A stretch of 35,575 bases of DNA, from the NCBI GenBank assembly GCA_021849615.1, contig JAJZSQ010000020.1, forward strand, positions 1 through 35,575, written 5' to 3'. Made by a program: the position numbers and the translations under genes. Shown here piece by piece: positions 1,844 through 18,919 of this stretch; within the stretch, counting starts at the first letter, position 1; each line of letters begins with the position of its first letter. This stretch comes from Pseudomonadota bacterium. Lineage in GTDB: Bacteria; Pseudomonadota; Gammaproteobacteria; Steroidobacterales; Steroidobacteraceae. The notes below the pieces were generated by a model, which saw only the letters and a list, made by a program, of their open reading frames with translations, did not search any database and was not told the origin of the DNA.

Positions 1844-1881
1844 GGATTGGCGCACGCGCGCTGCTAGTGTGGGGGGCGCAC

Positions 1882-1887
1882 ATTATA
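1882..1887 (-). promoter_or_regulatory. Candidate -10 box for the DUF1820-purL unit
   Basis: Read on the minus strand this hexamer is TATAAT, a perfect sigma70 -10 element, about 40 nt before the ATG of the DUF1820 gene. No convincing -35 hexamer is present 16-18 bp upstream, where the sequence is almost pure G+C. The call rests on one box plus position. Confidence 0.4.
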
Positions 1888-1974
1888 GGGTATCGCCGCC
1901 CGGCGCCGCGGAATCCTCCGCCGCCCGGCGATACGGGCACACGTGACAGTACCGGCATCTCGGATCTCAAGACC

Positions 1975-3222
1975 ATGACGCTTCGGCTACGCGTCATCAG
2001 CGCACAGCGCCGCCAGCTGGCCGGGCGCGACAGTGTGGAAATCGGCCTCGGCGGCGGCACCATCGGTCGCTCGGCCGACAACGACTGGGTACTGCCGGAC
2101 GCCCGGCGCTACGTCTCGGCGCATCACGCCCGGATCTCCTGGCGCGAAGGGCGCTTCTACCTCGAGGACCTCAGCACCAACGGGGTTTACGTGAACGATG
2201 CCGCCGAGCCGCTCGGCCGGCAGGGTCCGGACGCCTATCGGTTGCGCGACGGCGATGTGCTGCGCATCGGGGAGTACCAGATCGGCGTCTCCCTCGAGGA
2301 TTCGCCGACCAGCGACTCGGCCGCCTTGCTGCCCTCGCGCATCCTCGCGGTCCGGCCGCTCGCCGGCGCCCAGACGGACATCGGTGCGGCGCTCCATCTG
2401 GAAGACTTGTTGGCCGTCGATGCCGGGGGCACGGGCGAGATGCAGCCGGGGGATGCCTTCGGCCAGGGCCGAGCAGCAGCCCCGAACCCGTACCCTTCAC
2501 CCGCCGTACCGCCCACCTCGCGGGCCCCCAGAGTCCCGGAACCCGGGGACGACACGGTCGCCCGACGACTCTCCCGCTTGGCCCGCGCAGCGGCCCGGGA
2601 AGACTCCGCCGTCCCGACGGACGGCTCGGAGTGGCAGGTCTTCTGCCGCGGGGCCGGACTGAAGCCACAGCAGCTGCCGGCCCAAGCCCCGGCACTGATG
2701 CATCTGGCCGGTCGGCTGCTGCGCGAGACGCTGGTCGGGCTGAAGGACCTGGAGCGTTCGCGCGGGCAGATCCGTGACCGCTTCCGCATCCGGCCGGCGC
2801 CGCCGCCGGAGGGTCCCACGCTGGGGCAGCTGACCGTCGAGGAACTGCTGCTCGAGCTCTTCGGTCAGCACGAGGCACACACGCTCGATGCGGTGCGCTG
2901 GCTGCGTGAGCGCCACGATGAGATCAAGGCGCACGAACAGGCACTCGCCCAGGCCCTGCGGGCCGCGTTCATCGAATTCCTGGGGCGCCTCGATCCGGCC
3001 GAGCTGGAGACCCGGTTCGCGCGTGGCGGCCGCGGCAAGCCCGATGCGGCGCAGTACTGGGGCCAGTTCACCGCGTTTTACCGCAGCCTGCTCGACCGCC
3101 CGGACGACCATCTGCCGCCGACCTTCGTCGAGGCCTTTGCCGCGGCATACCAAGAGTCTTTGCGCCCGCAGACCCTCGACATGCCACGCGCCATTCAGCC
3201 GAAGCCGGCCCGGCGCGGCTGA
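1975..3222 (+). CDS. tagH: T6SS-associated FHA domain protein TagH (ImpI/VasC type)
   Basis: The protein has 415 residues. The FHA phosphothreonine-binding domain occupies about residues 20-105. The expected GRS (31-33), SxxH (48-51) and TNG (68-70) motifs are all visible. A proline/arginine-rich linker follows. The C-terminal part (about 210-405) has the architecture of the TagH/ImpI/VasC family, including RDRFRIR and a final segment with YWGQFTAFYRSLLDR and FVEAFAAAYQESL. In type VI secretion systems such proteins are targets of the PpkA/PppA phosphorylation switch. I chose the start MTLRLRVIS because the 36 upstream codons are proline-rich and unlike the family. No other T6SS gene is in the window, so its system must lie elsewhere or be lost. 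Confidence 0.8.
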   Translation: MTLRLRVISAQRRQLAGRDSVEIGLGGGTIGRSADNDWVLPDARRYVSAHHARISWREGRFYLEDLSTNGVYVNDAAEPLGRQGPDAYRLRDGDVLRIGEYQIGVSLEDSPTSDSAALLPSRILAVRPLAGAQTDIGAALHLEDLLAVDAGGTGEMQPGDAFGQGRAAAPNPYPSPAVPPTSRAPRVPEPGDDTVARRLSRLARAAAREDSAVPTDGSEWQVFCRGAGLKPQQLPAQAPALMHLAGRLLRETLVGLKDLERSRGQIRDRFRIRPAPPPEGPTLGQLTVEELLLELFGQHEAHTLDAVRWLRERHDEIKAHEQALAQALRAAFIEFLGRLDPAELETRFARGGRGKPDAAQYWGQFTAFYRSLLDRPDDHLPPTFVEAFAAAYQESLRPQTLDMPRAIQPKPARRG

Positions 3223-3238: not shown

Positions 3239-4798
3239 TCAGGGTCGGGCCCGGCGCCGGGCCGGCCAAATGCCGCGCAGCCGCCACAGGTCCATGCGCT
3301 CGATGCGCGATCCGCTCGAGCGCACCCGGACCGTATAGGCCCCACCGCGCGGAAACATCCGTTCCGCCACGGTGAGCTCGCCGCGATCCACGAACGCCTC
3401 GACGGACGAGCGATCGATGATCAGGTCCAGCTCGATGACGCGCGGGTGACCCGGCAAGCGCGTGCTGTTGCGCGAGTCGAAGGACGGGGAGAATCGGTAA
3501 TGGCCCGAGCGCACGACCGTGAACCGACCCGTCGCCGCCGCGTACCCTATGCGCACGTCTCGTCCGTCCGGCGAGCCGATCGTGAACGCGAAGCGGCCGT
3601 GCCGTCCGACGAGCACCCGCGCGCGGATCTCGTGCGCCGCGCCTAGCGGCGGCACCGTGAGCAGCGTCCGGCCGGCCGGGGCCACGAAACTGCCGAACTG
3701 CCGCCGCGCCACACGCAGCTTGGCCAGCGCCGCAATCGGACGCTGAATGAGCCAGTCGCGGCCGTTTTGATCCCGCAGCGCGAGGCGGCGCGGAAACGCC
3801 ATCGCGCCGCGCCAGGGCGCAGTCGGCGCATCCTGAGCGTAGAGCCAGTTGTCCATCCAGCCGAGCGTGATCACGGTGCCAGGGGCGCCCGGCAGGTTCG
3901 ACCAGGAGGCGCTCGCGTAGTAGTCCTCACCGAGATCGAGAGCCTGCGGGGGCTGGGCCGCCGCGCGGAACGTCGTCCCGTCGAAGTGCCCGATGAACAC
4001 CTGCCCGCCCCCGCCGGTGCCCGGGTGGTGCTGCTGGACGTCGACCTTCAGCACCCAGCGGAATTGCCCGGGGCGGTTCACGACCGGGAGGCGGAACAGA
4101 TCCGGACATTCCCACACGCCGCGGGTGTCCCCGGCGGGACCGAAGTTGCCCGTGTGCCGCCAGGTCTTCAGATTCTTCGAGGCATAGAAGGAGATCTCCC
4201 GGGCGGCGGCCCGCGAGACCACCATGATCCACTCGCGCCGCGGGGCGTACCAGAGTACTTTCGGATCTCGGAAGTTATTCAGCCCGATGTTGAGCACCGG
4301 ATTGCCGGCGTACTTGTGCCAGGTGTGCCCGCCATCGGTACTGTAGGCGAGGTTCTCGGTCTGCGGCCCCGGTCCATGGCGCGGATTGGCGGTGTAGATC
4401 GCCACCAGGGGTGCACGAGTGCCGACGCCAAAGCCACTGGTGTCGTGCCCATCGACGACCGCGCTGCCGGAGAAGATCATCGAGCGGCGGCCCTGCGGGA
4501 TGGCCACCGGTAACTGCCGCCAGTGCAGCAGGTCGCGGCTGACGGCGTGTCCCCAGCTCATGTTGCCCCAGCGCATGCCGTAGGGGTTGTACTGGAAGAA
4601 CAGGTGATACCAGCCGTGGAAATACACCAGGCCGTTCGGATCGTTCATCCAGTGCCGTGCTGGAGTGAAATGCACCTGCGGACGATAAATCTGGTCATAC
4701 CCAGAGGTGCCCGCGATCGCCCGCGCCCCTGCGGCGCCAAAGACCAGCAGCAGCGCGCCCAGCGCCACCAGCGCCGCCCGCCGCTCACGCCCGTTCAA
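3239..4798 (-). CDS. GH32 family beta-fructosidase (invertase/levanase/inulinase type)
   Basis: This enzyme hydrolyses terminal beta-fructofuranosyl bonds in sucrose, raffinose or fructans. Residues 1-30 form a hydrophobic leader suggesting export to the periplasm. The N-terminal five-bladed propeller carries all three GH32 signatures: WMNDPNG at 50-56 with nucleophile Asp53, RDP at 177-179 (transition-state stabiliser), and the EC motif at Glu230-Cys231 (acid/base). The C-terminal third matches the beta-sandwich module, including SSVEAFVDRGELTVAERMFP. The length of 519 aa is typical. Its start overlaps the end of the upstream MFS gene by 14 bp, indicating translational coupling. It is the last gene of the leftward operon and converges on tagH with a 16-bp gap. 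Exact specificity (sucrose, levan or inulin) cannot be read from the sequence. Confidence 0.93.
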   Translation of the reverse strand: MNGRERRAALVALGALLLVFGAAGARAIAGTSGYDQIYRPQVHFTPARHWMNDPNGLVYFHGWYHLFFQYNPYGMRWGNMSWGHAVSRDLLHWRQLPVAIPQGRRSMIFSGSAVVDGHDTSGFGVGTRAPLVAIYTANPRHGPGPQTENLAYSTDGGHTWHKYAGNPVLNIGLNNFRDPKVLWYAPRREWIMVVSRAAAREISFYASKNLKTWRHTGNFGPAGDTRGVWECPDLFRLPVVNRPGQFRWVLKVDVQQHHPGTGGGGQVFIGHFDGTTFRAAAQPPQALDLGEDYYASASWSNLPGAPGTVITLGWMDNWLYAQDAPTAPWRGAMAFPRRLALRDQNGRDWLIQRPIAALAKLRVARRQFGSFVAPAGRTLLTVPPLGAAHEIRARVLVGRHGRFAFTIGSPDGRDVRIGYAAATGRFTVVRSGHYRFSPSFDSRNSTRLPGHPRVIELDLIIDRSSVEAFVDRGELTVAERMFPRGGAYTVRVRSSGSRIERMDLWRLRGIWPARRRARP

Positions 4799-6104
4799 GG
4801 GCCTTCTCCATGTCTTCCAGGCGCACCCGGCGCGTTTCGGGGAAATACCGCGTGACCACCACCAGCTGCACCACCATCATGACGGCGAAAAAGACAAACG
4901 GCAGACCCTTCGAATAGGCCGCCGCGATGGGAAAGAAGGTGGCAATGAGTGCATCCATGCACCAGTGCGTGGACGCACCGAGACCCTGACCGCGCGAGCG
5001 CACCTCGGTGGGAAAGATCTCGGCGATGTACACCCAGATGACCGCGCCCTGGGAAAACGCGAACGAGGCGATGAACAACACGAGCATCCACAGCAGCCAG
5101 TGCTGGTGTGCGCCGGAGAGCTCGATGTAGGCGGTGGCCGCGAGCGAGACGATCAGGCCGAGCGAACCGACCTTGAGCAGCGTGCGCCGCCCGAACCGAT
5201 CGATCACCGCGAGCGCGAGCAGGGTGAAGGCGAAGTTGGTGGCCCCGATGAGCACCGCCTGAGCGGCGGCCGACACCCGACCGAAACCGGCGGCGGCGAA
5301 GATGTCGTTGAGGTAGTAGAGAATGGCATTGATGCCCGAGAGCTGATTGAAGGCGGCGATGCCCATCGCGAGCAGCATCGGGCGCGCGTGCCGCCGCCAC
5401 GAGAGCCGCGCCAGGGCACCGGATGCCGAACGATCGGCGCGCGCGTAACGCTCGAGCTCGGCAGCGACATCCGGGACGCCGATGCGGCCCAGCACATCCG
5501 CCGCCTCGACGGCGCGTCCACGGACCGCGAGCCAGCGCGGACTGTTGGGAATGGAGAACAGCTGCACGCCGAGCAAGGCCGCCGGGAACACCGCCACGAG
5601 GAATTTCCAGCGCCAGGCGTCGGGCCCGGCGAGGTGCACTCCGATCAGATAGTTGCTGAGGTAGGCGACCAGGATGCCAAAGACGATGTTGAGCTGGAAC
5701 ACGCCCACCAGCGCCCCGCGCCGCTCGGCGGGCGCGATCTCGGCCAGGTACGTCGGGGCGAGCACAGTCGAGGCGCCGATCGCCAGTCCGCCGAGCACCC
5801 GCGCGGCAATGAACAGCGGCAGAGTCGGTGCGGCGAAGCTGCCGAGCGCCGAGAGCAGGTACATCGCGGCAATGACGCGCAGGCAGTTGCGCGCTCCGAA
5901 TCGGTCGCCGGGGTACCCGGCGAGCAGCGCCCCGACGAGCGTCCCCCACAAAGCACTCGAGACGGTCCAACCCAGACCCGCAGGGTTCAACGCGAACGTC
6001 ACCGCGAGCCCGTGGGTCGCACCGGCGATGACCGCCGTATCGAATCCGAACAACAGACCGGTGAGTCCGCCGACGAAGATGCCCTTGGCGAGAACCGCGT
6101 TCAT
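4785..6104 (-). CDS. Sugar-porter-family MFS transporter (inner membrane)
   Basis: The predicted product is a 439-residue, twelve-helix sugar:H+ symporter of the major facilitator Sugar Porter family (XylE/GalP/GlcP relatives). Family marks include GLLFGFDTAVIAGA in helix 1, PTYLAEIAPAERRGALV after helix 4, SGINAILYYLNDIF near helix 7, DRFGRRTLLKVG in the second-half loop, and IFPTEVRSRGQGLG. I chose the ATG preceded by a purine-rich AGGGGG; a GTG nine codons upstream is less likely because it lies inside the end of the GH27 gene. Lying between two periplasmic glycosidases, it probably imports a monosaccharide they release (glucose, fructose or galactose); the substrate is inferred from context only. 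Confidence 0.92.
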   Translation of the reverse strand: MNAVLAKGIFVGGLTGLLFGFDTAVIAGATHGLAVTFALNPAGLGWTVSSALWGTLVGALLAGYPGDRFGARNCLRVIAAMYLLSALGSFAAPTLPLFIAARVLGGLAIGASTVLAPTYLAEIAPAERRGALVGVFQLNIVFGILVAYLSNYLIGVHLAGPDAWRWKFLVAVFPAALLGVQLFSIPNSPRWLAVRGRAVEAADVLGRIGVPDVAAELERYARADRSASGALARLSWRRHARPMLLAMGIAAFNQLSGINAILYYLNDIFAAAGFGRVSAAAQAVLIGATNFAFTLLALAVIDRFGRRTLLKVGSLGLIVSLAATAYIELSGAHQHWLLWMLVLFIASFAFSQGAVIWVYIAEIFPTEVRSRGQGLGASTHWCMDALIATFFPIAAAYSKGLPFVFFAVMMVVQLVVVTRYFPETRRVRLEDMEKALERA

Positions 6105-6127
6105 CGAGCCCCCTGTCTTGTTGAATC

Positions 6128-7354
6128 TCACTCGGAGCGGCCGGGCCGCACCGGCGTCTCGGTCAGCATGATCACCGAGGTCGGCGCCACGTCAAAGCGG
6201 ACCGCACGCGTCGCCACGGGTAGATCCCGATGGCGCCACAGGTCGCGCAGCCGCAGCGGCAGGTACTCCGGCAGGCCGAGTTCGGCCCAGGTGAGGCGGA
6301 TGCTGAGCGGCTCAGCGCCGCGGTTCAGCAGCACCACCGCTTCGCGACCGCCGGTAAGCGGACGGACCCAGATCTCGGCAGCTCCGTGGCGGTACACCGG
6401 CCGGCCCTCGATGCCGAGCCGGTCCTGGTCGACGGCGATCACTTCGCGGTTGGTGAGGATCGCTCGAGTCTGCGCATCCATGTGCGCCAGATCATTGCCG
6501 GCGATGAGCGGCGCGGCGAGCAGGGCCCAGAGGCTGAACTGGGCCTGGTATTGGGCCTCGCTCATGCCGCCGTTGCCGATCTCGAGCATGTCCGGATCGT
6601 TCCAGTGCCCGGGTCCCGCATAGGGCGCGAGCCCGACCTGCCGGTCGAGGATATTGAGCATCCCGAGGGCGAAGCCGTGGTGGCCCCGCCAGGCATCCCA
6701 GATGTCCGGCGTCGTGCGCCAGAGATTACCGCCGGCCGCAGCTCCCCAGCGCCAGGGCTTGCGCACCCCCCAGTCGCACAGGCTGAACACGACCGGCCGG
6801 CCGGCGGCGTGCAGCGCATCGGCCATGGTCGCGTAGGCGGTGCGAGGACGCTCGCCACCGGTGTTGCACCAGTCGTACTTGAGATAATCAACGCCCCAGC
6901 GCGCATAGGTGAGCGCATCCTGATACTCATGGCCGCGGCCCCCGGGTCGGCCCTGGCACGTCTCGGCACCCGCGTCCGAATAGATCCCGAACTTCAGTCC
7001 CAGCGAGTGGACGTAATCGGCGAGTGCCTTCATGCCCTTCGGGAAGCGCTTCGGGTCGGGATGAATGTTGCCATGGGGACCCCGTGTCCCCTGCCAGCAG
7101 TCATCAATGATGACGTAGCGGTAACCGGCGGCCTTCATGCCGGAGCTCACCATGGCGCGCGCCTCGCGCTCGATGAGCGTCGCGTTCACATGGCAGCCGA
7201 AGTGGTTCCAGCTGTTCCAGCCCATCGGCGGGGTGAGTGCGAGCCCGTTCGCCGGCCGCGCGTAGAAGTGCATCGGCTCACTCGCCTGCCCCATCGGCAT
7301 CCCGAGCACCCCAACGGCCAGCACCATAGCGGCCAGCGACAATAACTTATGCAT
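6128..7354 (-). CDS. GH27 alpha-galactosidase
   Basis: This enzyme removes alpha-1,6-linked galactose, for example from raffinose, stachyose or melibiose. The 408-residue product has a signal peptide (about 1-25), then the GH27 barrel beginning LTPPMGWNSWNHFGC. The nucleophile is Asp161 in YLKYDWC, and the acid/base is expected at Asp217 in WRTTPDIWD. IIDDCW and GIYSDAG are further GH27/GH36 clan marks. A C-terminal beta domain follows from about residue 315. The chosen ATG has GAGGGGGG just upstream; an ATG four codons earlier has a poorer ribosome site. It lies 18 nt after the halogenase-like gene and 23 nt before the MFS start. Some GH27 members are beta-L-arabinopyranosidases, but the sucrose-handling neighbours favour alpha-galactosidase. 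Confidence 0.93.
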   Translation of the reverse strand: MHKLLSLAAMVLAVGVLGMPMGQASEPMHFYARPANGLALTPPMGWNSWNHFGCHVNATLIEREARAMVSSGMKAAGYRYVIIDDCWQGTRGPHGNIHPDPKRFPKGMKALADYVHSLGLKFGIYSDAGAETCQGRPGGRGHEYQDALTYARWGVDYLKYDWCNTGGERPRTAYATMADALHAAGRPVVFSLCDWGVRKPWRWGAAAGGNLWRTTPDIWDAWRGHHGFALGMLNILDRQVGLAPYAGPGHWNDPDMLEIGNGGMSEAQYQAQFSLWALLAAPLIAGNDLAHMDAQTRAILTNREVIAVDQDRLGIEGRPVYRHGAAEIWVRPLTGGREAVVLLNRGAEPLSIRLTWAELGLPEYLPLRLRDLWRHRDLPVATRAVRFDVAPTSVIMLTETPVRPGRSE

Positions 7355-7372
7355 CGCCCCCCTCATGACCCG

Positions 7373-8875
7373 TCAGGAATTGCGGCAATGCCGCGCAATG
7401 TAGTCTTGATGGGTCGGCATGCCGAGCGCGGCCGCATTCAAGGTGCGGCGCAACTGCTCGAGGTACGGCACGGCATCGAAGGTGCGGTACTCGAGCAGAG
7501 GGTCTTGGCGCTCGGGCCAGTTCATCTGACCGATGTGCACCGCGAGCCAGCTGGTCGGCCCGAAGATGTCCATCTCGCTCGGCAAGATCCGTCCGAACCG
7601 GCGGAAATGCTCAATCTTGTACTGCAGGCTCTCCGGCACCGTCATCTGCGCGCAATAGCGCCACAGTTCCCCGTCGGTGCGGCTGTTCAGATGGTAGTGC
7701 AGGATGATGAAATCCCGGATGCGCTCGAGCTCCGCGTTCGCCACGCGGTTGTACTCGCGGATCACGAGCGGATCGAAGTCCCGGTCGGGGAAGTAGGCGA
7801 TGAGTTTGGAGATTCCCGCCTGAATCAGATGCAACGCGGTGGACTCCAGCGGCTCGAGGAAGCCGCTCGAGAGGCCGATGGCGATGACGTTCTTGTTCCA
7901 GTGCACCCGGCGTCGCCCAGGGGTGAAGCGGATCAGCCTCGGCTCTGCGAGCGGCGCACCGTCGAGATGGCTGAGCAGAACCTCGGCTGCCTGCGCATCG
8001 CTCATCCACTGCGAGGCGAACACATGGCCGTTGCCGGTGCGATGCTGCAGCGGAATGCGCCATTGCCAGCCGGCGGTGTGGGCCTGCGAGCGTGTGTAGG
8101 GCGGCAGGTCGGTCCGCGCGCTCGGCACCGCGAGCGCACGATCGCACGGCAGCCAGTGCGACCAGTCCTCGAAGCCGGTTGCGAGCGCCCCCTCGATCAG
8201 CAGCGCACGCATCCCGGAGCAGTCGATGAACAGCTCGCCACGCAGCTCGCTGCCGTTCTCCAGGCGGATCGCCTGCACGAATCCGCTCTCGGGGTGCTGC
8301 TCGACCGCCACCACCTTGCCCTCGATGCGCCGCACGCCGCGGGCCTCGGCGTACTCGCGTAGGAATTTCGCGTACAGGTGCGCATCAAAATGGTACGCGT
8401 AGAGATAGGTCGAGCGCACATTGCGCGGATCGGTCGCCGGATGCTCGAAGCGCCCGGCCCGCGCGGCCGCCCAGGCCATGCAATACTCCTCGAGCCCCCC
8501 GGCCTGGCCGGCCGCCCGGGCCCGCAGCCAGTGATGCTGCAGCTGCACCAGATCGAACGGCCGCCCGTAGCTGCCGAAGGGATGAAAGTAGCGCTGCCCG
8601 AGCCGCGCCCAGTCGATGAACTCGATGCCGAGCTTGAACGTCCCCTGGGTGCGCCGCAGGAACTCCTCCTCCGGCACGCCGAGCATTTCGTTGAACAGCC
8701 GGATCGGCGGGATCGTCGCCTCGCCGACCCCGACGATGCCGATCTCCTCGGATTCGACGAGCGTGATGCGGCAATCGCGCTCGATCGTGCGGGCGAGCGC
8801 CGCGGCGCTCATCCAGCCCGCCGAGCCGCCCCCGACGATCACGATCTGCTCAATCCTGCGGCTCGAGCCTGACAT
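7373..8875 (-). CDS. Flavin-dependent halogenase family protein (tryptophan-halogenase-like)
   Basis: This 500-residue FAD protein resembles PrnA/RebH-type halogenases, which make hypohalous acid from FADH2, O2 and halide. Visible motifs are the dinucleotide fold VGGGSAGWMSAAAL at about 13-26, the candidate catalytic Lys81 in GTFKLGIEF, the WxWxIP motif at 270-275 that blocks monooxygenase activity, and EPLEST at 341-346, which contains the conserved Glu. No signal peptide is present, so it should be cytosolic. It needs a flavin reductase, which is not encoded nearby. Homologues recur beside TonB receptors in sugar-utilisation loci of Xanthomonas/Caulobacter-type bacteria, with an unclear physiological role. 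The substrate is unknown. A GAGGGCGAAC ribosome site supports the start. Confidence 0.92.
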   Translation of the reverse strand: MSGSSRRIEQIVIVGGGSAGWMSAAALARTIERDCRITLVESEEIGIVGVGEATIPPIRLFNEMLGVPEEEFLRRTQGTFKLGIEFIDWARLGQRYFHPFGSYGRPFDLVQLQHHWLRARAAGQAGGLEEYCMAWAAARAGRFEHPATDPRNVRSTYLYAYHFDAHLYAKFLREYAEARGVRRIEGKVVAVEQHPESGFVQAIRLENGSELRGELFIDCSGMRALLIEGALATGFEDWSHWLPCDRALAVPSARTDLPPYTRSQAHTAGWQWRIPLQHRTGNGHVFASQWMSDAQAAEVLLSHLDGAPLAEPRLIRFTPGRRRVHWNKNVIAIGLSSGFLEPLESTALHLIQAGISKLIAYFPDRDFDPLVIREYNRVANAELERIRDFIILHYHLNSRTDGELWRYCAQMTVPESLQYKIEHFRRFGRILPSEMDIFGPTSWLAVHIGQMNWPERQDPLLEYRTFDAVPYLEQLRRTLNAAALGMPTHQDYIARHCRNS

Positions 8876-8903
8876 GTTCGCCCTCGCGCAAAGAGCCCCC
8901 CGG

Positions 8904-8941
8904 GATTCCCGGCGCGGTCGCGTGCGCCCGCGCCGGGAATC
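8904..8941 (-). promoter_or_regulatory. Strong intercistronic hairpin between TonB receptor and halogenase genes
   Basis: The arms 8904-8917 and 8928-8941 are perfect 14-nt inverted repeats rich in G+C, separated by a 10-nt loop. The hairpin lies seven nucleotides past the receptor stop and about 28 nt before the halogenase start. On the transcribed strand it is followed by a G run and no U tract, so it does not look like an intrinsic terminator. The likely role is mRNA 3'-end stabilisation or processing that keeps receptor mRNA more abundant than the downstream enzymes; that role is inference. Confidence 0.7.
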
Positions 8942-8947
8942 GGGAGC

Positions 8948-11572
8948 TTAGAACTTCATCGTCACGCTGGCGAGTACGGTGCGTCCGGGCTCCGCGCTCA
9001 CGCCGACAACCCCTGGGCCGGTAGTCACCGCGCCACCACCGCCGACCCCGAGACTGTTGAACGCATTATTCACATGCAGTGCCGCGGACAAATGCCGCGT
9101 GAACGCGTAGGAAACAAAGCCATCGAGGAAATCCTGCTCCGGGGAGTAGAACGGCACTGGACCACCGATGTTCTGCTGACTCTGGCCCTGCCAGACCAGC
9201 CCACCGGTTAGGGCATGCCACCGGTAGGTCGGCGCCAGCACCCACATGAGCTTCGACATCCCGGGCGGCAGGAATCCGGAGCCGAGGCTGGTCAGCTGGC
9301 TCGGGCTCGGTCCGACTTCATTGGAGTCGACCTTCGGGTTCTGATAGGTCGCCTGCGCATACAGTGAGAAGCCCCCGACCGCCCAGGTCGCCTCGAATTC
9401 CCCACCGCTCGCCGAGTACTTCTCGTTGAAGTAGCGGGTCGCCACCGGCTGGGTCAGATCGAAGCTCGACTCGCTGAAGCTGGTGTGGAAGTACGAGAGC
9501 GTCACGCCGTAGCTGCCCCCGAGAAACTCACCCTCGTGCTTGATGCCAGCCTCCTGCTGCAACACGATGTCGAGCGCCTTGCCGGCGCCCGAGGCATTGA
9601 GCGACCCGTTCGGGTTGGTGTATCCGGAGAGGATGTTGCGATCGGTGTTCGGCTTACCGCCGCGGCTGGCGCGGATGTATACGCTGGTGCTGTCGTTGAG
9701 CATGTACAGCGCGCCGATCGACCAGGAGCGGTAGCTGATGCCGTAGTCGAGCGGCTCGTAGGTGCTCGGATCGATCGTCGAGTAAGACACCAGCGGGGTC
9801 CCGAGGCCGCCCGCGGCGCTCAGCATCCCGCCGCTGAGATAGCCCACGTGAGTGGTTGCGGCACTGGCGCTCTCGGCCCAGCCGCTTACCCGGTAGTCGT
9901 CCTGACGGACGCTGCCCTGCAGCTGCAGCCGATCGATGCTCCAGGTCAGGTCGAGGTACGGAGCCGTATCGGTGACGTTCATGTTGTACAGCCGATCCAC
10001 GCTCGCACCCCAGTTGGTATTGTATCCGGTCACTCCATTATTGCTGAGCAATTGACCGGCGGTGCTGATCAGATCCAAGTTCTGCGGATTGCTGCCGCTC
10101 ACGGCTTGCAGCTGCGCGTTCGGATGCCAGCTCTGATCGATGGTCTGCGACATATAGAACAGGCCGCCGCCTGCATGCAGCTTGCCGTATGGAGTTCGCC
10201 AGTGGTCCTGCACCGACATATCATTCACCACGTTGCCCATATTGTGCATGTTGGTGTAGATCTGGGCGTTGTTATTCACCAGCCCGGAGTACGCCTGACC
10301 CGCATTCGGCCCGGCGGCGTAGACGACCTGGCCGACCGTCTGTCCGTTGACCGTACTGCCGATGATCGAGGCGGTATTGCCGAGACCGAAGAACTGCGCG
10401 GCGAACGTACCATTGATCCAGCTGACGCGAAACTTGTCATCGACCGAGAGGTTTCCTCCCGGCAGGAAATACAGCTCAGCACCGAGTGAGTCGACACGCG
10501 GGTGAATACCGTCGTTGGGCGTCTGCGCGAACTGCCCGGAGAGGTTGCTGAGATAGGTGATCGACTGGTTGTAAATCCCCACGGTGGTGCCAGTGCGCAC
10601 GTCAAAGCCCGGGTAGACGGAGATGCTCGAGAGCGTGTTGCCGCTGCCAACGGCGCTCACCGGTCCGCCTGCGTTGTATTCCTCTCGATCGTTGAGCAGC
10701 TTCGCATACAGGCGGATGAAACCCTTGTGCGCAGCGAGGTCGTGCGTGATGTTGCCCTTGAGCTGGTAGCCGTTGACGCCGATGAACCCCTGATCGCGCA
10801 GCCCGGTGCCATGCACGTAGAAGCCATCGAGGTGGTAGCGCCAGGTCTTGTTGATCGGGCCGCCGACCGCGAACGTCGCCTTGGTCTGTCCGAACCCCAG
10901 ACCCTGCGACAAAGTGAACTCGCCGCTCTTGTGCCGGCCGGTCGCACTGATGAAGTTGATGACCGCCCCCGGAGCCCCGGCGGCGAGCGTCGCGGCGCTG
11001 CCGCCCACGGTCGCCTGCATCTGCTCCGAGACGTCGAAGCGCGTCCAGTAATCGTTATTGCCGAAGTTCATGTCGCCGAAGAGCACCTGCGGCAGCCCAT
11101 CTTCCTGGATCTGCACGAACGGCGCACCACCGGTGGTCACCGGCAGGCCGCGCACGGTGAAATTCGCATTGCCGCCACTACCAGCCTGATCCTGGACGGA
11201 CACCCCGGGAATCAGGCGCAGCATCTCGGCGATCGACTGCGGCGCCATGGCCACAATCAGCTTGCTCGGAATCGTAGTGACCTGCTCGGAGGTCTCCAGG
11301 TTGCTGCGCGACTGAACCGAAGCGGTGACGACCACCTGCTGCAGCATATTGCTCGGCGCGGCGATCATCGTGGCTGGGCCGCCCGAGGCGCCGTTTGCCG
11401 CCTGCGCGGACGCGGCATCTGCCGCGGGTCGCGCGGGCGCCGCCGCGGCAAGTTGTGCCGCGCCAAGTGCCATTGAGACGGCGGCTGCAACGCTCATGAA
11501 CGTCACGGTGCGCGCGGCGACGGCCGGCACCCGGATGCAATGGGATTGCTGTTGCGACTTCAGATATTTCAC
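8948..11572 (-). CDS. TonB-dependent outer-membrane receptor of the sugar locus
   Basis: This is an 874-residue outer-membrane transporter energised by TonB-ExbB-ExbD. The long leader (about residues 1-45) ends in an Ala-rich stretch. A TonB-box-like QVVVTAS is followed by a plug domain with IPSKLIVAMAPQSIAEMLRL, VRGLPVTTGG and VQIQEDGLPQV, and then a barrel ending in VTMKF with the terminal Phe expected for BAM-assembled barrels. I chose a GTG start because AGGGGGAGGT lies 3 nt upstream; extending the frame by 43 codons would run through the promoter and operator. It is the first gene after a LacI-type palindrome and leads the halogenase-GH27-MFS-GH32 series. The ligand is inferred to be an oligosaccharide such as sucrose, raffinose or a fructo-oligosaccharide. 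Confidence 0.92.
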   Translation of the reverse strand: MKYLKSQQQSHCIRVPAVAARTVTFMSVAAAVSMALGAAQLAAAAPARPAADAASAQAANGASGGPATMIAAPSNMLQQVVVTASVQSRSNLETSEQVTTIPSKLIVAMAPQSIAEMLRLIPGVSVQDQAGSGGNANFTVRGLPVTTGGAPFVQIQEDGLPQVLFGDMNFGNNDYWTRFDVSEQMQATVGGSAATLAAGAPGAVINFISATGRHKSGEFTLSQGLGFGQTKATFAVGGPINKTWRYHLDGFYVHGTGLRDQGFIGVNGYQLKGNITHDLAAHKGFIRLYAKLLNDREEYNAGGPVSAVGSGNTLSSISVYPGFDVRTGTTVGIYNQSITYLSNLSGQFAQTPNDGIHPRVDSLGAELYFLPGGNLSVDDKFRVSWINGTFAAQFFGLGNTASIIGSTVNGQTVGQVVYAAGPNAGQAYSGLVNNNAQIYTNMHNMGNVVNDMSVQDHWRTPYGKLHAGGGLFYMSQTIDQSWHPNAQLQAVSGSNPQNLDLISTAGQLLSNNGVTGYNTNWGASVDRLYNMNVTDTAPYLDLTWSIDRLQLQGSVRQDDYRVSGWAESASAATTHVGYLSGGMLSAAGGLGTPLVSYSTIDPSTYEPLDYGISYRSWSIGALYMLNDSTSVYIRASRGGKPNTDRNILSGYTNPNGSLNASGAGKALDIVLQQEAGIKHEGEFLGGSYGVTLSYFHTSFSESSFDLTQPVATRYFNEKYSASGGEFEATWAVGGFSLYAQATYQNPKVDSNEVGPSPSQLTSLGSGFLPPGMSKLMWVLAPTYRWHALTGGLVWQGQSQQNIGGPVPFYSPEQDFLDGFVSYAFTRHLSAALHVNNAFNSLGVGGGGAVTTGPGVVGVSAEPGRTVLASVTMKF

Positions 11573-11651: not shown

Positions 11652-11665
11652 TACAAACGTTTGCA
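11652..11665. promoter_or_regulatory. LacI-type operator upstream of the TonB receptor
   Basis: The 14-mer TACAAACGTTTGCA contains a perfect 10-bp palindrome (CAAACGTTTG, 11654-11663) with the central CG typical of LacI-family operators. On the minus strand it overlaps a possible -35 element (TTGCAA); TCTACT lies 17 bp downstream as a possible -10. Its reverse complement, TGCAAACGTTTGTA, differs from the palindrome at 14242-14255 at only two symmetric positions. That argues both are bound by the LacI-family regulator encoded in this locus. Confidence 0.75.
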
Positions 11666-11708: not shown

Positions 11709-12605
11709 TCAACCCATGGCGAGCAACAGCGCGCCGGTGATTCCGGCCTGGCCGGCGAGCGCCGGAGCCACGATCAGGCGCTCGAATCCGCCCGCCCGCG
11801 CCTCGATCGGCAGATAGCCGCCGAGCTGCTCGGTGGCGACCGCGCGGATGCGCGGCAGCAGATCGGCTCCGCTCATGACGCCACCGCCGAACACGATGCG
11901 CTCGCTCGCGTACATGAGCGCGATCGTGGCGGCGAGCTGCCCGAGATATCCACCGATGATGTCAGGTCCGGCGTGTCCGATCGGCAGCGCACTCATCGGC
12001 GCCCCCCAGCGCGCCACGATCGCCGGACCGCTCGCCAGGCCCTCGAGACAGTCGCCGTGAAACGGACAGACGCCGCGGAATTGCCCATCACGCGGATCAC
12101 GGCGTACACGGATGTGCCCCATCTCCGGATGCAGCAGGCCGCGAATCGAGCGGCCCTGCTCGATCACACCGCCGCCGATCCCGGTCCCGACCGTGACGTA
12201 AGTGAGCGAGTTTGCATCCCGTCCGGCGCCAAGTCGCGCCTCGGCGAGCGCCGCGGCGTTGACGTCGGTGTCGAGCGCGACCGGGCACCCGAAGCGCTCG
12301 AGCGGCGCCACCAGGGAAGTCCCGGCCCAGCCCGGCTTGGGCGTGCTCAGTATCGACCCCCAGGTGTCCGAGCGAGGCTCGATGTCCACCGGCCCGAAGG
12401 CACCGACGCCAAATGCGCTGAATGCGCCGGCGTTCGCGCGCACCTGCTCGAAGAATGCAACTACCGCCGCGAGGGTTTCGGCGGGCGTCGTCGTCGCAAT
12501 AACGGTGCGCATCTGCGGCGCAATGTCCGTCGGCCCGTAGCCCGCCGCGCAGACGAACTTCGTCCCGCCCGCCTCGATGGCTCCGTACAGTGCTCGCCTG
12601 TTCAC
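11709..12605 (-). CDS. ROK family fructokinase
   Basis: This cytosolic kinase phosphorylates fructose to fructose-6-phosphate with ATP. The 298-residue product begins with the phosphate-binding segment ALYGAIEAGGTKFVCAAG, in the form typical of ROK fructokinases (Bacillus YdhR type). The catalytic region includes DTDVNAAALAEARLGAG and VGTGIGGG. The zinc site is intact: HPEMGH followed by CPFHGDCLEGLASGPA. FGGGVMSG lies near the C-terminus. I chose a GTG start because a G-rich ribosome site lies about 8 nt upstream and the family begins just before the IEAGGTK strand. It follows sucrose phosphorylase by 73 bp on the same strand and consumes the fructose that enzyme releases, so an scrK-like role is well supported. 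Confidence 0.93.
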   Translation of the reverse strand: MNRRALYGAIEAGGTKFVCAAGYGPTDIAPQMRTVIATTTPAETLAAVVAFFEQVRANAGAFSAFGVGAFGPVDIEPRSDTWGSILSTPKPGWAGTSLVAPLERFGCPVALDTDVNAAALAEARLGAGRDANSLTYVTVGTGIGGGVIEQGRSIRGLLHPEMGHIRVRRDPRDGQFRGVCPFHGDCLEGLASGPAIVARWGAPMSALPIGHAGPDIIGGYLGQLAATIALMYASERIVFGGGVMSGADLLPRIRAVATEQLGGYLPIEARAGGFERLIVAPALAGQAGITGALLLAMG

Positions 12606-12678
12606 GTCATCCCCCCCGATTGACCGCGTTGCGCCCCGAGGAACGCCCTGCACAGCATAACGCGGCCGTGCGCGGGCT

Positions 12679-14196
12679 TCAGCCCTGCCACACGGTGTCC
12701 CGCGGTGCGTCCGACCAGAGCGCCGGGCAGCACGCGAACTCGAGGGACTCCGAGGCTGCGCCTTCCCCGTGACGGACCGTCCAGCGGCGCGCGGCGAAGT
12801 CCGCGATCAGTTCGGCGTGGGCGCAGCCCGCCTCCCAGCGCAGCGCCAGAACGTTGGGCGCCGTGCGCCCGATCCGTAGCGCACCACCGAACGCCGGGTG
12901 TGTGTTACGCAGCCGGATCAGGCGCAGCAGATCTGTGCAAACGGGCCGTGCGAGCTCCCGGAGTACCTCGTGCAGGCCGTAGCGACCGCGGTTGATGTCG
13001 CGCCCCACGCCGGAACGCTCGAGCAGCGGCATGTCGTTTCCGCCGCCGAGCAGGCCGACGTAATAGACCTGGGGAATCCCGGGCAGAAAGAATTGCACGG
13101 CGCGCGCCAGCAGGTAATCCCGATCGACGCGGCCGAGCGCGTCGTAGAAGGTGCAATTCACCTGATACAGATCGAGGTTGGATGCGGCCGCGCCGGTCGC
13201 GCGGCGACTCTCTCCGCCGCTGCGCTCATGGATGGTTTCGACCAGCCGATCGATCTCGGCCGCGGGCAGCAATCCGTCCCGGCCGGTGCCGGCCTCGGGC
13301 CCCACATCGATCACGCCGATCCCATCGTGAGTGTCGAGCACCGTCAAGGCGTTGCGCGGACGGATCTCGATCCAGTGCTTCAGGTAGCCCGCCGTTCCAT
13401 TGAACAGCGCGTGCAGGACGAGCGGCGGCAGCGCGAAGTCGTACACCCAATCCACCCGCGCCGCGATGTCGATCTGGCGCAGGTAATGAGAGTGCACCTC
13501 GACGAGGACCTCCATGTCGAGCGAGCGCGCAAGCGTGGTCAGTTCGCCGATGAACTCGAACGTCTCCGGCAGCATGAAGCAGCTCGTCCCGGCGCGCTTG
13601 ATCGCGTACCCGACGGCATCGAGCCGAATGGCGCGGATGCCGTGCTCGCTGAAGGTCTTCAGGATGCTCTCGAGGTAAGCTCGTCCCTGACGGTGACGCA
13701 CGTTGATATCGAGCTGCTGCGGGGTGAAGGTCGTCCAGAGGATGCGCTTCTCCCCATTCTCGAGCGTCACCGCCGTCAGCGGCAACCCGGGCCGTGGCCG
13801 GTAGATTGCCGTCAGTTCATGCTCGTGCGCCCCATCGGGGAACACCGATTCGAGCGTCAGAAACAGCCCGTCGTAGGCTGACGCGTGTCCGCGCTGCGAA
13901 AAGTCCTTGAACTGCGGCGAGTCGCACGACATGTGATTGACGATCACGTCGGCCATGAGATCGACATGTCGCCCGAGACGGGCCACATCCTCCCACGTGC
14001 CGAGGCGCGTATCGACGCGGGTATGATCGATCGGGTCGAAGCCGGCATCAGCACCGTCGATCGGGTCAAAAAAAGGCAGCAGGTGCACCGTGCCGAACAC
14101 CCCATCGAGCGGCCCGGTGAGCAGCGCTTCGAGCTCGCGCAGCGTACCGCCGCCAAAACGATCCACGTAGGTGATGAGCTGAACTTGATTCTTCAT
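12679..14196 (-). CDS. Sucrose phosphorylase (GH13 subfamily 18)
   Basis: This enzyme cleaves sucrose with inorganic phosphate to alpha-glucose-1-phosphate and fructose in the cytoplasm. The 505-residue protein closely follows the Bifidobacterium adolescentis enzyme: an N-terminus of the form MKNxVQLITYxDR, the RPRPG substrate loop at 133-137, nucleophile Asp193 in IRLDAVGYA, acid/base Glu233 in LVEVHSHY, and transition-state Asp291 in VLDTHDGIG. ATGAAASNLDLYQVN and FFLPGIPQVYYVGLL also match. There is no signal peptide. The start is fixed by homology, yet the bases just before it are C-rich and show no Shine-Dalgarno sequence. It heads the leftward gene series and diverges from an MFS gene across a shared operator. 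A phosphorylase acting on sucrose-6'-phosphate or glucosylglycerate is the alternative within the subfamily. Confidence 0.95.
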   Translation of the reverse strand: MKNQVQLITYVDRFGGGTLRELEALLTGPLDGVFGTVHLLPFFDPIDGADAGFDPIDHTRVDTRLGTWEDVARLGRHVDLMADVIVNHMSCDSPQFKDFSQRGHASAYDGLFLTLESVFPDGAHEHELTAIYRPRPGLPLTAVTLENGEKRILWTTFTPQQLDINVRHRQGRAYLESILKTFSEHGIRAIRLDAVGYAIKRAGTSCFMLPETFEFIGELTTLARSLDMEVLVEVHSHYLRQIDIAARVDWVYDFALPPLVLHALFNGTAGYLKHWIEIRPRNALTVLDTHDGIGVIDVGPEAGTGRDGLLPAAEIDRLVETIHERSGGESRRATGAAASNLDLYQVNCTFYDALGRVDRDYLLARAVQFFLPGIPQVYYVGLLGGGNDMPLLERSGVGRDINRGRYGLHEVLRELARPVCTDLLRLIRLRNTHPAFGGALRIGRTAPNVLALRWEAGCAHAELIADFAARRWTVRHGEGAASESLEFACCPALWSDAPRDTVWQG

Positions 14197-14213: not shown

Positions 14214-14242
14214 TTTACGGCGAGGCCGGTCACGGCTATAAT
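14214..14242 (+). promoter_or_regulatory. Sigma70-type promoter for the MFS gene
   Basis: TTTACG (14214-14219) and TATAAT (14237-14242) are separated by exactly 17 bp and point toward the MFS gene, whose ATG lies 35 nt further on. The -10 box abuts the LacI-type palindrome, a standard repressor geometry. On the opposite strand TTTACA (14262-14267) with CATTAT 18 bp downstream is a weaker candidate promoter for sucrose phosphorylase. Confidence 0.72.
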
Positions 14243-14255
14243 GCAATCGATTGTA
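14242..14255. promoter_or_regulatory. LacI-type operator in the divergent sucP-like/MFS promoter
   Basis: TGCAATCGATTGTA contains the perfect palindrome CAATCGATTG (14244-14253) with a central CG. It sits immediately after the MFS -10 box and inside the candidate promoter spacer for the divergent sucrose phosphorylase gene. It shares the form TGCAA-N-CG-N-TTGTA with the site upstream of the TonB receptor, with the two variable positions changing symmetrically. Confidence 0.78.
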
Positions 14256-14276: not shown

Positions 14277-15545
14277 ATGACCGGGCAGTCGCCGACTACC
14301 ACGCGCAATTTCGTCATCATCCGCGCGCTCACCTGTCTGATGTTTCTGATGTTCGCCATGACCTCCGATGCCGTCGGCAGCGTCATCCCGAAGATCATCG
14401 CCGAGTTTCACCTGAGCATGAAGGCCGCCTCGGCCTTCCAATATGCGCCCATGGCCGCAATGGCCGCCGGCGCGGTGCTGCTCGGGTTTCTCGCCGACCG
14501 CCTGGGGCGCAAGCCGACCATCATCATCGGGCTGGCCCTGTACGGGGTGGCCTCGGCGCTGTTCGCCCTCGGCAGCAGCTTCGGGCAGTTCGTCGCTCTG
14601 CTGGCGCTCGAGGGACTCGGCGTCAGCATCTTCAAGACCGGCGCGCTGGCACTCGTCGGAGACGTTTCGCGCTCGACGGCGCAGCACACCGGCCTGATGA
14701 ACCTGCTCGAGGGCTTCTTCGGCATCGGCTCGATCATCGGTCCGGCCGTCGTCGCGCTGCTGCTCACCAAGCGGCTGTCGTGGAAGTGGCTTTACGTGAT
14801 CGCCGCCGGCGTATGCGCCCTGCTCATCGTGCTCGCCCTGATTGCCGAATATCCCGCGGAGCGGCGCACCGGGCGCCCGCCGGCAGGCCTGCTGCCCACC
14901 CTAGCTCTGCTGCGTGACCCGTACGCACTCAGTTTCTCCTGCCTCATCTCGCTCTACGTTGCGGTCGAGGTCGCCATCTACGTGTGGATGCCCACATATC
15001 TCGGCTTCTACCACGGCGCGCTCATCGCGTTCGTCCCCTACGCACTGACGGCATTCTTCGTGCTGCGTGCCACCGGCCGGCTGCTCGGAGCGTGGCTGCT
15101 CGCGCGCTGTTCCTGGACCACGGCACTCGCCGTCCTCAGCATCGCCATCTTCGGCTGTTTCGCCGGGAGTCTCGCCGGCGGCTCGCGTCTCGGGCTGATC
15201 CTGCTGCCGCTCTCGGGCCTGTTCATGTCGGTGATCTACCCGACCATCAACTCCAAGGGCATCAGCGGGTTCCCAAAGGCCGAGCACGGCCGGGTGTCGG
15301 GGCTGCTGCTGGCATTTACGGCGCTCGCCGCGGCGCTCGCGCCTTTCGCCATGGGTGCGGTCAGCGACGCCTACCGCAGTCCGCGCTATGGATTCGTGCT
15401 CGCCACGGGATTCGCACTGCTGCTCGCGCTCGGTCTGGCAGTCAATGCGCTGAGCGGCGCCTCGCGGCGACGGTTGCGTGCCATGGAGCAGCTTGAATAC
15501 GCGCCGGAAGCGCCAGCCACGCTCACCGCGGCGCCGACTCCCTGA
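14277..15545 (+). CDS. MFS transporter, probable sucrose or sugar importer
   Basis: The 422-residue inner-membrane protein has about twelve hydrophobic helices. The MFS signature GFLADRLGRKPTIIIGLALY lies after helix 2. The second half begins near residue 210 with ALLRDPYALSF. A G-rich ribosome site sits 3-4 nt before the ATG. It differs from the sugar-porter MFS in the same locus and lacks that family's second-half signature. It shares its promoter and operator with the divergent cytosolic sucrose phosphorylase, which needs intact sucrose inside the cell, so sucrose import is a reasonable but unproven assignment. Its 3' end overlaps the convergent LacI gene by 23 bp. Confidence 0.85.
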   Translation: MTGQSPTTTRNFVIIRALTCLMFLMFAMTSDAVGSVIPKIIAEFHLSMKAASAFQYAPMAAMAAGAVLLGFLADRLGRKPTIIIGLALYGVASALFALGSSFGQFVALLALEGLGVSIFKTGALALVGDVSRSTAQHTGLMNLLEGFFGIGSIIGPAVVALLLTKRLSWKWLYVIAAGVCALLIVLALIAEYPAERRTGRPPAGLLPTLALLRDPYALSFSCLISLYVAVEVAIYVWMPTYLGFYHGALIAFVPYALTAFFVLRATGRLLGAWLLARCSWTTALAVLSIAIFGCFAGSLAGGSRLGLILLPLSGLFMSVIYPTINSKGISGFPKAEHGRVSGLLLAFTALAAALAPFAMGAVSDAYRSPRYGFVLATGFALLLALGLAVNALSGASRRRLRAMEQLEYAPEAPATLTAAPTP

Positions 15546-16560
15546 TCATCAGCTCGACCGGCAAGGTCACCGATTCGGTCTCTTCTCCCTCAATGCGACG
15601 GAACAGCAAATCGATGAGTGTGCGCGCGCCGAATTCGACGTCCTGACGCACCGTGGTCAGACTGGGTGTCGTGTGCGCAGCGATCGCAATGTCATCGAAG
15701 CCGACGACCGCGACATCCTGAGGCACTGAACGGCCCTCGTTCGCCAGCGCGCGCATGGCACTGATCGCAATCACGTCGGTGGCTGCAAACAACGCATCGA
15801 AGGATTCCCCGGCCTGCAGGCAATCGCGCACCGCCTGATACGCCGCATCCGGCGTCAGATGTGCCGGCACCAGGCGCGCCGGCGCAGTACCGCGCGGCGC
15901 GCCCTCGAGGGCGCGCTCATAGCCCTCGTAGCGCTGGCGCAGCTCCGGTCCGGTCGGATCACCGAGGAAGACGATCCGCCGCCGGCCGGACTGCAGCAGA
16001 TGGCGCACCGCAGCGCGGGCACCGCCGGGATTATCCGAGCCCACCGAGCAGTATTTCTGGCCCGGCAGCTGCGCTCCCCAGACCACCAGCGGCAGATAGG
16101 TGTCTGCGGCGCGCTGCAGCGTCTCGTGCTCGGTGCTCTGACCGATCACCACAATGCCGTCACTGCGGCCCGAAGCGATCGCATCGCCCAGCCATTCATG
16201 CGTCGGGCGCACCGCCTTTTGCAGATGCAGTCCGTAGCCGCGCTGCGTGACCGCCTCGGCCAGATGACCGAGCATGGCGACGAAGAACGGATCGGTCAGC
16301 GGCTGGCCCGCCTCGTGCTGCAGCGGAATCATCACCGAAACCATCTGCGTACGCTTCAGCCGCAGACTGCGGGCCACCGGATTGACGACGTAGCCGTGCT
16401 CCAGGGCGAGCTGCTCGATGCGCTTGCGTTTGCCGGCCTCGACCAGCGGGCTGCCCGCGAGCGCCCGCGAAACCGTCGACACGTGCACTCCCGCGAGGCG
16501 GGCGATGTCGGTCATCTTCGCCGCTTTGCCGCGGCTGCTCTCCCGCGCACGCTGCTTCAT
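15523..16560 (-). CDS. LacI-family transcriptional regulator of the sugar locus
   Basis: The 345-residue repressor has an N-terminal helix-turn-helix (about 16-40: MTDIARLAGVHVSTVSRALA), a hinge helix around NPVARSLRLKRT, and a periplasmic-binding-like effector domain with DGIVVIGQS, IVFLGDPTGPE and VAVVGFDDIAIA. It should bind the CG-centred palindromes found at 11652 and 14242 and be released by a sugar or sugar phosphate. A start 15 codons later (16515), just before MTDIARLAG, is possible; neither start has a clear ribosome site. No matching palindrome is visible in its own short upstream region, so autoregulation is not evident. It is convergent with the MFS gene it probably controls. Confidence 0.93.
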   Translation of the reverse strand: MKQRARESSRGKAAKMTDIARLAGVHVSTVSRALAGSPLVEAGKRKRIEQLALEHGYVVNPVARSLRLKRTQMVSVMIPLQHEAGQPLTDPFFVAMLGHLAEAVTQRGYGLHLQKAVRPTHEWLGDAIASGRSDGIVVIGQSTEHETLQRAADTYLPLVVWGAQLPGQKYCSVGSDNPGGARAAVRHLLQSGRRRIVFLGDPTGPELRQRYEGYERALEGAPRGTAPARLVPAHLTPDAAYQAVRDCLQAGESFDALFAATDVIAISAMRALANEGRSVPQDVAVVGFDDIAIAAHTTPSLTTVRQDVEFGARTLIDLLFRRIEGEETESVTLPVELMIRESAPR

Positions 16561-18871: not shown

Positions 18872-18919
18872 GGGGCGCCACCGGGCTGCCGCGCCGTGAC
18901 GAGCGTCACACCTCGCCGC

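Follow-up and report, generated by a model that had tools for sequence, protein, structure and literature searches.

Among the flavin-dependent halogenases (FDHs), which attach bromine or chlorine to aromatic rings, PrnA, RebH and PyrH act on free tryptophan and belong to biosynthetic clusters. QhpG, a relative in the Pfam family Trp_halogenase (PF04820), acts on tryptophan within peptides or proteins. MibH, of the same family, has this type of substrate as well (PMC8269204). The closest relatives of the enzyme analysed here are BrvH from Brevundimonas BAL3 (PDB 6frl), Xcc4156 from Xanthomonas (PDB 6y1w) and Pseudoalteromonas L11 (9luq). BrvH lacks the Trp-binding residues and halogenates free indole at C3, with a preference for bromide; it is an active halogenase, and the K83A variant has lost halogenation. 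It turns indole over slowly, however, and the authors of that work are doubtful of indole as the natural substrate (PMC5945002). Group-C FDHs, the non-tryptophan FDHs, are without the Trp4 motif (PMC8269204). Structures of BrvH-type halogenases have been solved. The sucrose locus to be compared is the sux CUT locus of Xanthomonas campestris, which consists of four genes, suxA, suxB, suxC and suxR, and includes no halogenase (PMC1790865).

The window, that is, the whole stretch of 35,575 nucleotides from a member of the Steroidobacteraceae, carries an FDH of the BrvH/Xcc4156 type (7373-8875, minus strand) within a set of sugar genes. On the same strand, and in the order of the receptor operon, are a sucrose-class TonB-dependent receptor (TBDR; 8948-11572), the FDH, a GH27 (Melibiase_2) alpha-galactosidase (6128-7366), a sugar MFS transporter (4785-6131) and a GH32 beta-fructosidase (3239-4798); 6 bp separate the FDH stop from the GH27 gene, and the next two gene junctions overlap. 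Farther along are a ROK-family kinase whose nearest family is fructokinase ScrK, under the cut-off of that family (11709-12653, minus), a sucrose phosphorylase that scores above the TIGR03852 cut-off (12679-14196, minus), a second MFS transporter (14277-15545, plus) and a LacI-family regulator (15523-16560, minus). These assignments, made by domain searches, confirm the sugar-operon setting claimed in the first-pass annotation. In the same searches, no biosynthetic or aromatic catabolic genes were found in the locus. From the GH32, GH27 and sucrose phosphorylase genes, the ligands of the locus would be sugars of the sucrose/raffinose type. As in the sux locus, a TBDR, an inner-membrane sugar transporter, a sucrose-splitting enzyme and a LacI-type regulator are present in one locus; here, however, sucrose phosphorylase, the fructokinase-like ROK protein, GH32 and GH27 stand in place of amylosucrase, and the FDH is added.

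Two LacI-type operators were identified, both of them perfect 14-bp palindromes. One, TACAAACGTTTGCA (11652-11665), is upstream of TBDR-FDH-GH27-MFS-GH32; the other, TGCAATCGATTGTA (14242-14255), is in the promoter region from which the sucrose phosphorylase and MFS genes diverge. Both are conserved in five genomes; matching sites are found in four related genomes, and shuffles of the window gave an expectation of 0. The receptor frame is open from TTG 11701, but translation probably begins at GTG 11572, after GGGGGAGG and downstream of the operator at 11652. Judged from its sequence, the locus is LacI-controlled, and the FDH is under joint selection with the sucrose/raffinose uptake operon that the conserved operator precedes. 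Between the TBDR stop and the FDH start is a strong hairpin (8904-8941, minus strand; fold z of -3.6 for 8873-8960), and inverted repeats of different sequence were seen by eye at the same junction in genomes G006 and G014; this hairpin possibly lowers FDH output relative to that of the TBDR. The locus is syntenic in G023 and G006; in G014 and G020 the synteny is fragmentary, the pieces lying where contigs end. Elsewhere in the window, an FHA protein with a T6SS_FHA_C domain (1867-3222) lies just downstream of the GH32 gene, two adjacent GGDEF-EAL proteins (16610-21595) lie upstream of the LacI gene, and a second beta-barrel TonB receptor (22051-24609) has no FDH neighbour.

The FDH gene is an intact minus-strand reading frame of 500 codons with an ATG start, whereas the plus strand of 7373-8875 is interrupted. 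The protein matches PF04820 over almost the whole domain (E 2.1e-186, profile positions 1-454 of 458), with 620.7 bits against a cut-off of 21. Lys81, WxWxIP and EPLEST, reported at first reading, are all present: the protein has the GxGxxG motif (GGGSAG), the catalytic Lys (K81), WQWRIP (270-275, with W270 and W272) and the Glu/Ser halide site EPLEST (341-346, with E341 and E344). An alignment of 19 diverged homologues shows no variation at K81, E344 or either Trp, and almost all of the 78 relatives aligned retain the four motifs. No signal peptide is evident to the eye. The AF2 model (pLDDT 95) has as its best solved-structure matches Xcc4156 (Z 52.5), L11 (51.7) and BrvH (51.3), with 485-488 residues aligned at 1.5-1.6 A; the free-tryptophan halogenases PyrH and PrnA rank lower (Z 46-48). 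Full-length identity is 46-50% to BrvH, Xcc4156 and L11, which share its fold and motifs, and 31-36% to PrnA, RebH and PyrH, which share fold and catalytic residues but whose kind of biosynthetic cluster is not found at this locus. The nearest named relative, from a Steroidobacteraceae MAG (L067), is 74% identical.

Read against the published motif list (PMC8269204), the protein is without either form of the Trp4 motif (YYHG.. or FRNFW..). Its NCBIfam QhpG match, of 36.7 bits, is below the equivalog cut-off of 240. By sequence and model it belongs to the BrvH/Xcc4156 group, i.e., group C, and its intact fold and catalytic residues predict a genuine halogenase; the competence claimed in the first-pass annotation is upheld by motif and fold. 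Four positions, R105, W135, H447 and N452, mark the sucrose-class FDHs. R105 follows the substrate-site motif HPFG, and H447 and N452 are in the C-terminal region that, in tryptophan halogenases, holds the substrate-binding motif. Against three orthologues, dN/dS is 0.11-0.22, similar to that of the operon partners; the FDH is under purifying selection equal to theirs. A search for flavin reductase (PF01613) found none in the locus, as the earlier reading had said, nor in the genome, but since this genome is only 87% complete the genome-wide absence is not meaningful. PF01613 is present in 10 of 10 high-quality relatives and, because these enzymes are unlinked in the relatives, the lack of a local one says little.

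The earlier suggestion that such genes recur beside TonB receptors was borne out by the survey of neighbourhood conservation that it had called for. In 75 of the 79 public FDH loci scored, a TBDR is within 5 kb of the FDH (72 from local profiles, to which Pfam added three), and in 50 it is within 300 bp; the background in genome G000 is about 29 TBDR plugs in 3.2 Mb. Sugar genes, drawn from a limited seed set, are within five genes of the FDH in 52 of 79 loci. Alpha-, beta- and gammaproteobacteria are represented in this partnership, as are loci for sucrose, maltodextrin and chitin, and it includes two unrelated receptor families, namely TIGR01782 and the sucrose class, which is not TIGR01782. 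The genome of the window itself has about ten PF04820 places, several of them in other sugar loci: a maltodextrin locus has two FDHs, a TBDR, GH31, GH13 and LacI; a chitin-type locus has GntR, GH18 and an Stf0 sulfotransferase beside the FDH; and there are also TBDR-FDH-SapC and FDH-SapC-Cupin_8 sets. In the literature covered, which took in few subscription journals, no description was found of a halogenase partnered with TonB, SapC or sugar loci, or of a receptor-matched FDH arrangement behind a LacI-type operator.

FDH clades tend to follow TBDR classes. FDH and TBDR distances are correlated (Mantel correlation 0.47, p 0.002). For the 26 of these loci with a LacI gene as well, removing the LacI signal, the sole control for organism relatedness, leaves a correlation of 0.35, while that between FDH and LacI, given TBDR, falls to 0.11. 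The sucrose-class FDHs form one clade (support 1.0, 25 sequences from the alpha and gamma classes, i.e., from Steroidobacteraceae, Rheinheimera, Aliiglaciecola, Caulobacterales and sphingomonads), which is matched to one TBDR clade; the exception is L070, where a sucrose-clade FDH adjoins a different receptor class. BrvH and Xcc4156 have been studied as isolated enzymes, whereas here the operon, the operator sites and the matched receptor clade are defined.

Other enzymes recur in these neighbourhoods. A TPR-2OG oxygenase (PF13759) is found close to receptor and FDH in 14 of 21 paired sucrose loci and occurs in 0 of 59 unpaired ones, a contrast to be read with caution since the paired receptors form a single clade; the locus of the window lacks it. 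The best full-length match of its model, at Foldseek rank 1, is AspH, by domain order and with a TM of only 0.33, and its catalytic domain resembles P. putida P4H/PHD2 (Z about 16); as modelled, then, the oxygenase resembles protein hydroxylases. Beside other FDHs are found a TPR-sulfotransferase, Stf0, Cupin_8, SapC and DUF6445.

Sucrose-class receptors with and without an FDH, drawn from Sphingomonadaceae and other genomes, differ in the plug motif FGNNDYW (11045-11065, minus strand; residues 213-219 counted from the TTG), which we consider a candidate target. Trp219 is present in all 20 scorable FDH-paired receptors and in none of 59 FDH-less homologues, which have Phe (55) or Tyr (4) at this position. 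Four NNDYW receptors had no FDH called; three are at contig edges (L177, L185 and L232), and the fourth, L234, has an intact FDH missed by gene calling. The paired receptors are a single clade, and the Trp219 pattern therefore counts as one evolutionary event. Moreover, 14 of 127 conserved receptor columns separate the two groups, and by our own arithmetic one or more of the four columns with a conserved Trp would fall among these 14 with a probability of about 0.4. In the maltodextrin class (TIGR01782), the FDH has been lost without the loss of any conserved aromatic residue. For these three reasons, Trp219 as the target is a lead and not a result; the residue could simply bind sugar. Two other candidates were rejected. 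A Trp target common to all FDH-paired receptors fails because no Trp is conserved in the plug loops of TIGR01782 receptors. In the maltodextrin-class receptor, W449 does not covary, being kept in four FDH-less homologues; this position is Tyr in L158, a class-2 receptor with no FDH on its contig, and Trp in L153, another such receptor with a weaker match.

FDHs travel with receptors, which suggests that what they chemically modify is connected with the receptor and may even be the receptor. One sugar-linked aromatic ligand cannot explain the sucrose, maltodextrin and chitin loci together; their shared feature is the receptor. Receptor-directed or receptor-linked protein modification would fit both the matched clades and the companion that resembles a protein hydroxylase. 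We propose, tentatively and at rather less than an even chance, that the FDH is a modifying enzyme dedicated to the receptor, its target being a protein for which the TBDR is the leading candidate. The FDH would be at work in the cytosol, with FADH2 supplied by an unlinked flavin reductase, and would brominate or chlorinate an aromatic side chain of its cognate protein. The first candidate target would be the newly made receptor before export, and the first candidate residue Trp219; in relatives, the TPR-2OG oxygenase would share this target. Such a modification may tune ligand binding, TonB coupling or receptor susceptibility. MibH, which shares the fold but is only 26% identical, is a precedent for a peptide or protein substrate, as is QhpG, though the FDH falls below its cut-off. 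The narrower version, namely that the FDH halogenates Trp219, or the neighbouring Tyr218, in the plug of the partner TBDR before export, together in relatives with the protein hydroxylase, as part of a widespread proteobacterial receptor-modification system, we regard as unlikely. Should this hold, the bacterial cell surface would be subject to a new class of post-translational modification. The locus offers a concrete, falsifiable target, namely a receptor whose Trp is clade-specific; it also points to the sugars that are probably the inducers and, through homologous loci that lack the halogenase, provides natural controls.

Of the roles suggested at first reading, action on the aglycone of a plant phenolic glycoside or on the ligand that is imported is not favoured. 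Sugars of the sucrose/raffinose type have no aglycone, which makes a plant aglycone unlikely, and the same FDH family accompanies maltodextrin and chitin receptors. Sucrose loci without any FDH exist that are otherwise complete and, as the Xanthomonas sux locus also indicates (PMC1790865), the catalytic steps of sucrose use need no FDH. These same loci are what could be said for a passenger or general detoxification enzyme, whose stay near receptors is due to operon drift and which has no receptor-specific role; we hold this to be highly improbable, given TBDR synteny over three proteobacterial classes, the matched FDH and TBDR clades, and purifying selection equal to that on the operon partners.

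A small aromatic substrate tied to sugar use (indole, a phenol or a signal), with the receptor link reflecting shared regulation or uptake, is retained because BrvH halogenates indole in vitro (PMC5945002), and it would suit a Trp4-less group-C enzyme (PMC8269204) that is apparently cytosolic and whose operon is preceded by a LacI-type operator. We nevertheless find it doubtful: BrvH turns indole over slowly and its authors question that substrate (PMC5945002), the locus holds no biosynthetic or aromatic catabolic genes, and a general metabolite explains neither the receptor-class-matched clades nor the unrelated sugars. Since halide may be scarce, the FDH fold might alternatively serve in vivo as a QhpG-like monooxygenase, so that the target is hydroxylated or oxidised rather than halogenated. 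The sub-threshold QhpG match and the recurrence of TPR-2OG and Cupin_8 oxygenases in the FDH-receptor niche are in its favour, but the protein retains Lys81 and WxWxIP as well as the Ser/Glu site, and BrvH is active as a halogenase whose activity K83A abolishes (PMC5945002); we deem this distinctly unlikely.

Several further genes were noted. Three full-length PF04820-like pseudo-halogenases (L101:8454-9986, L121:11470-13020 and L126:11505-13004) adjoin or sit between intact FDHs in TBDR loci, but most of their catalytic motifs are gone (GEAT, WxWxIP, EPLEST and, in two of the three, the Lys); from their sequences, they are possibly inactive partners. Several other loci have similar low-scoring FDH-like genes at the corresponding place, and a divergent PF04820 protein (G000:C62:449-1489) has a 690-aa open frame in which the family is matched only in two pieces. 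A DUF6445 protein, which represents another accessory family, directly follows the FDH in a GH127 locus (L124:11494-12171), and a TPR/SEC-C sulfotransferase (L071:11553-13316) and an Stf0 sulfotransferase (L010:2116-2907) are each beside an FDH in a sugar locus.
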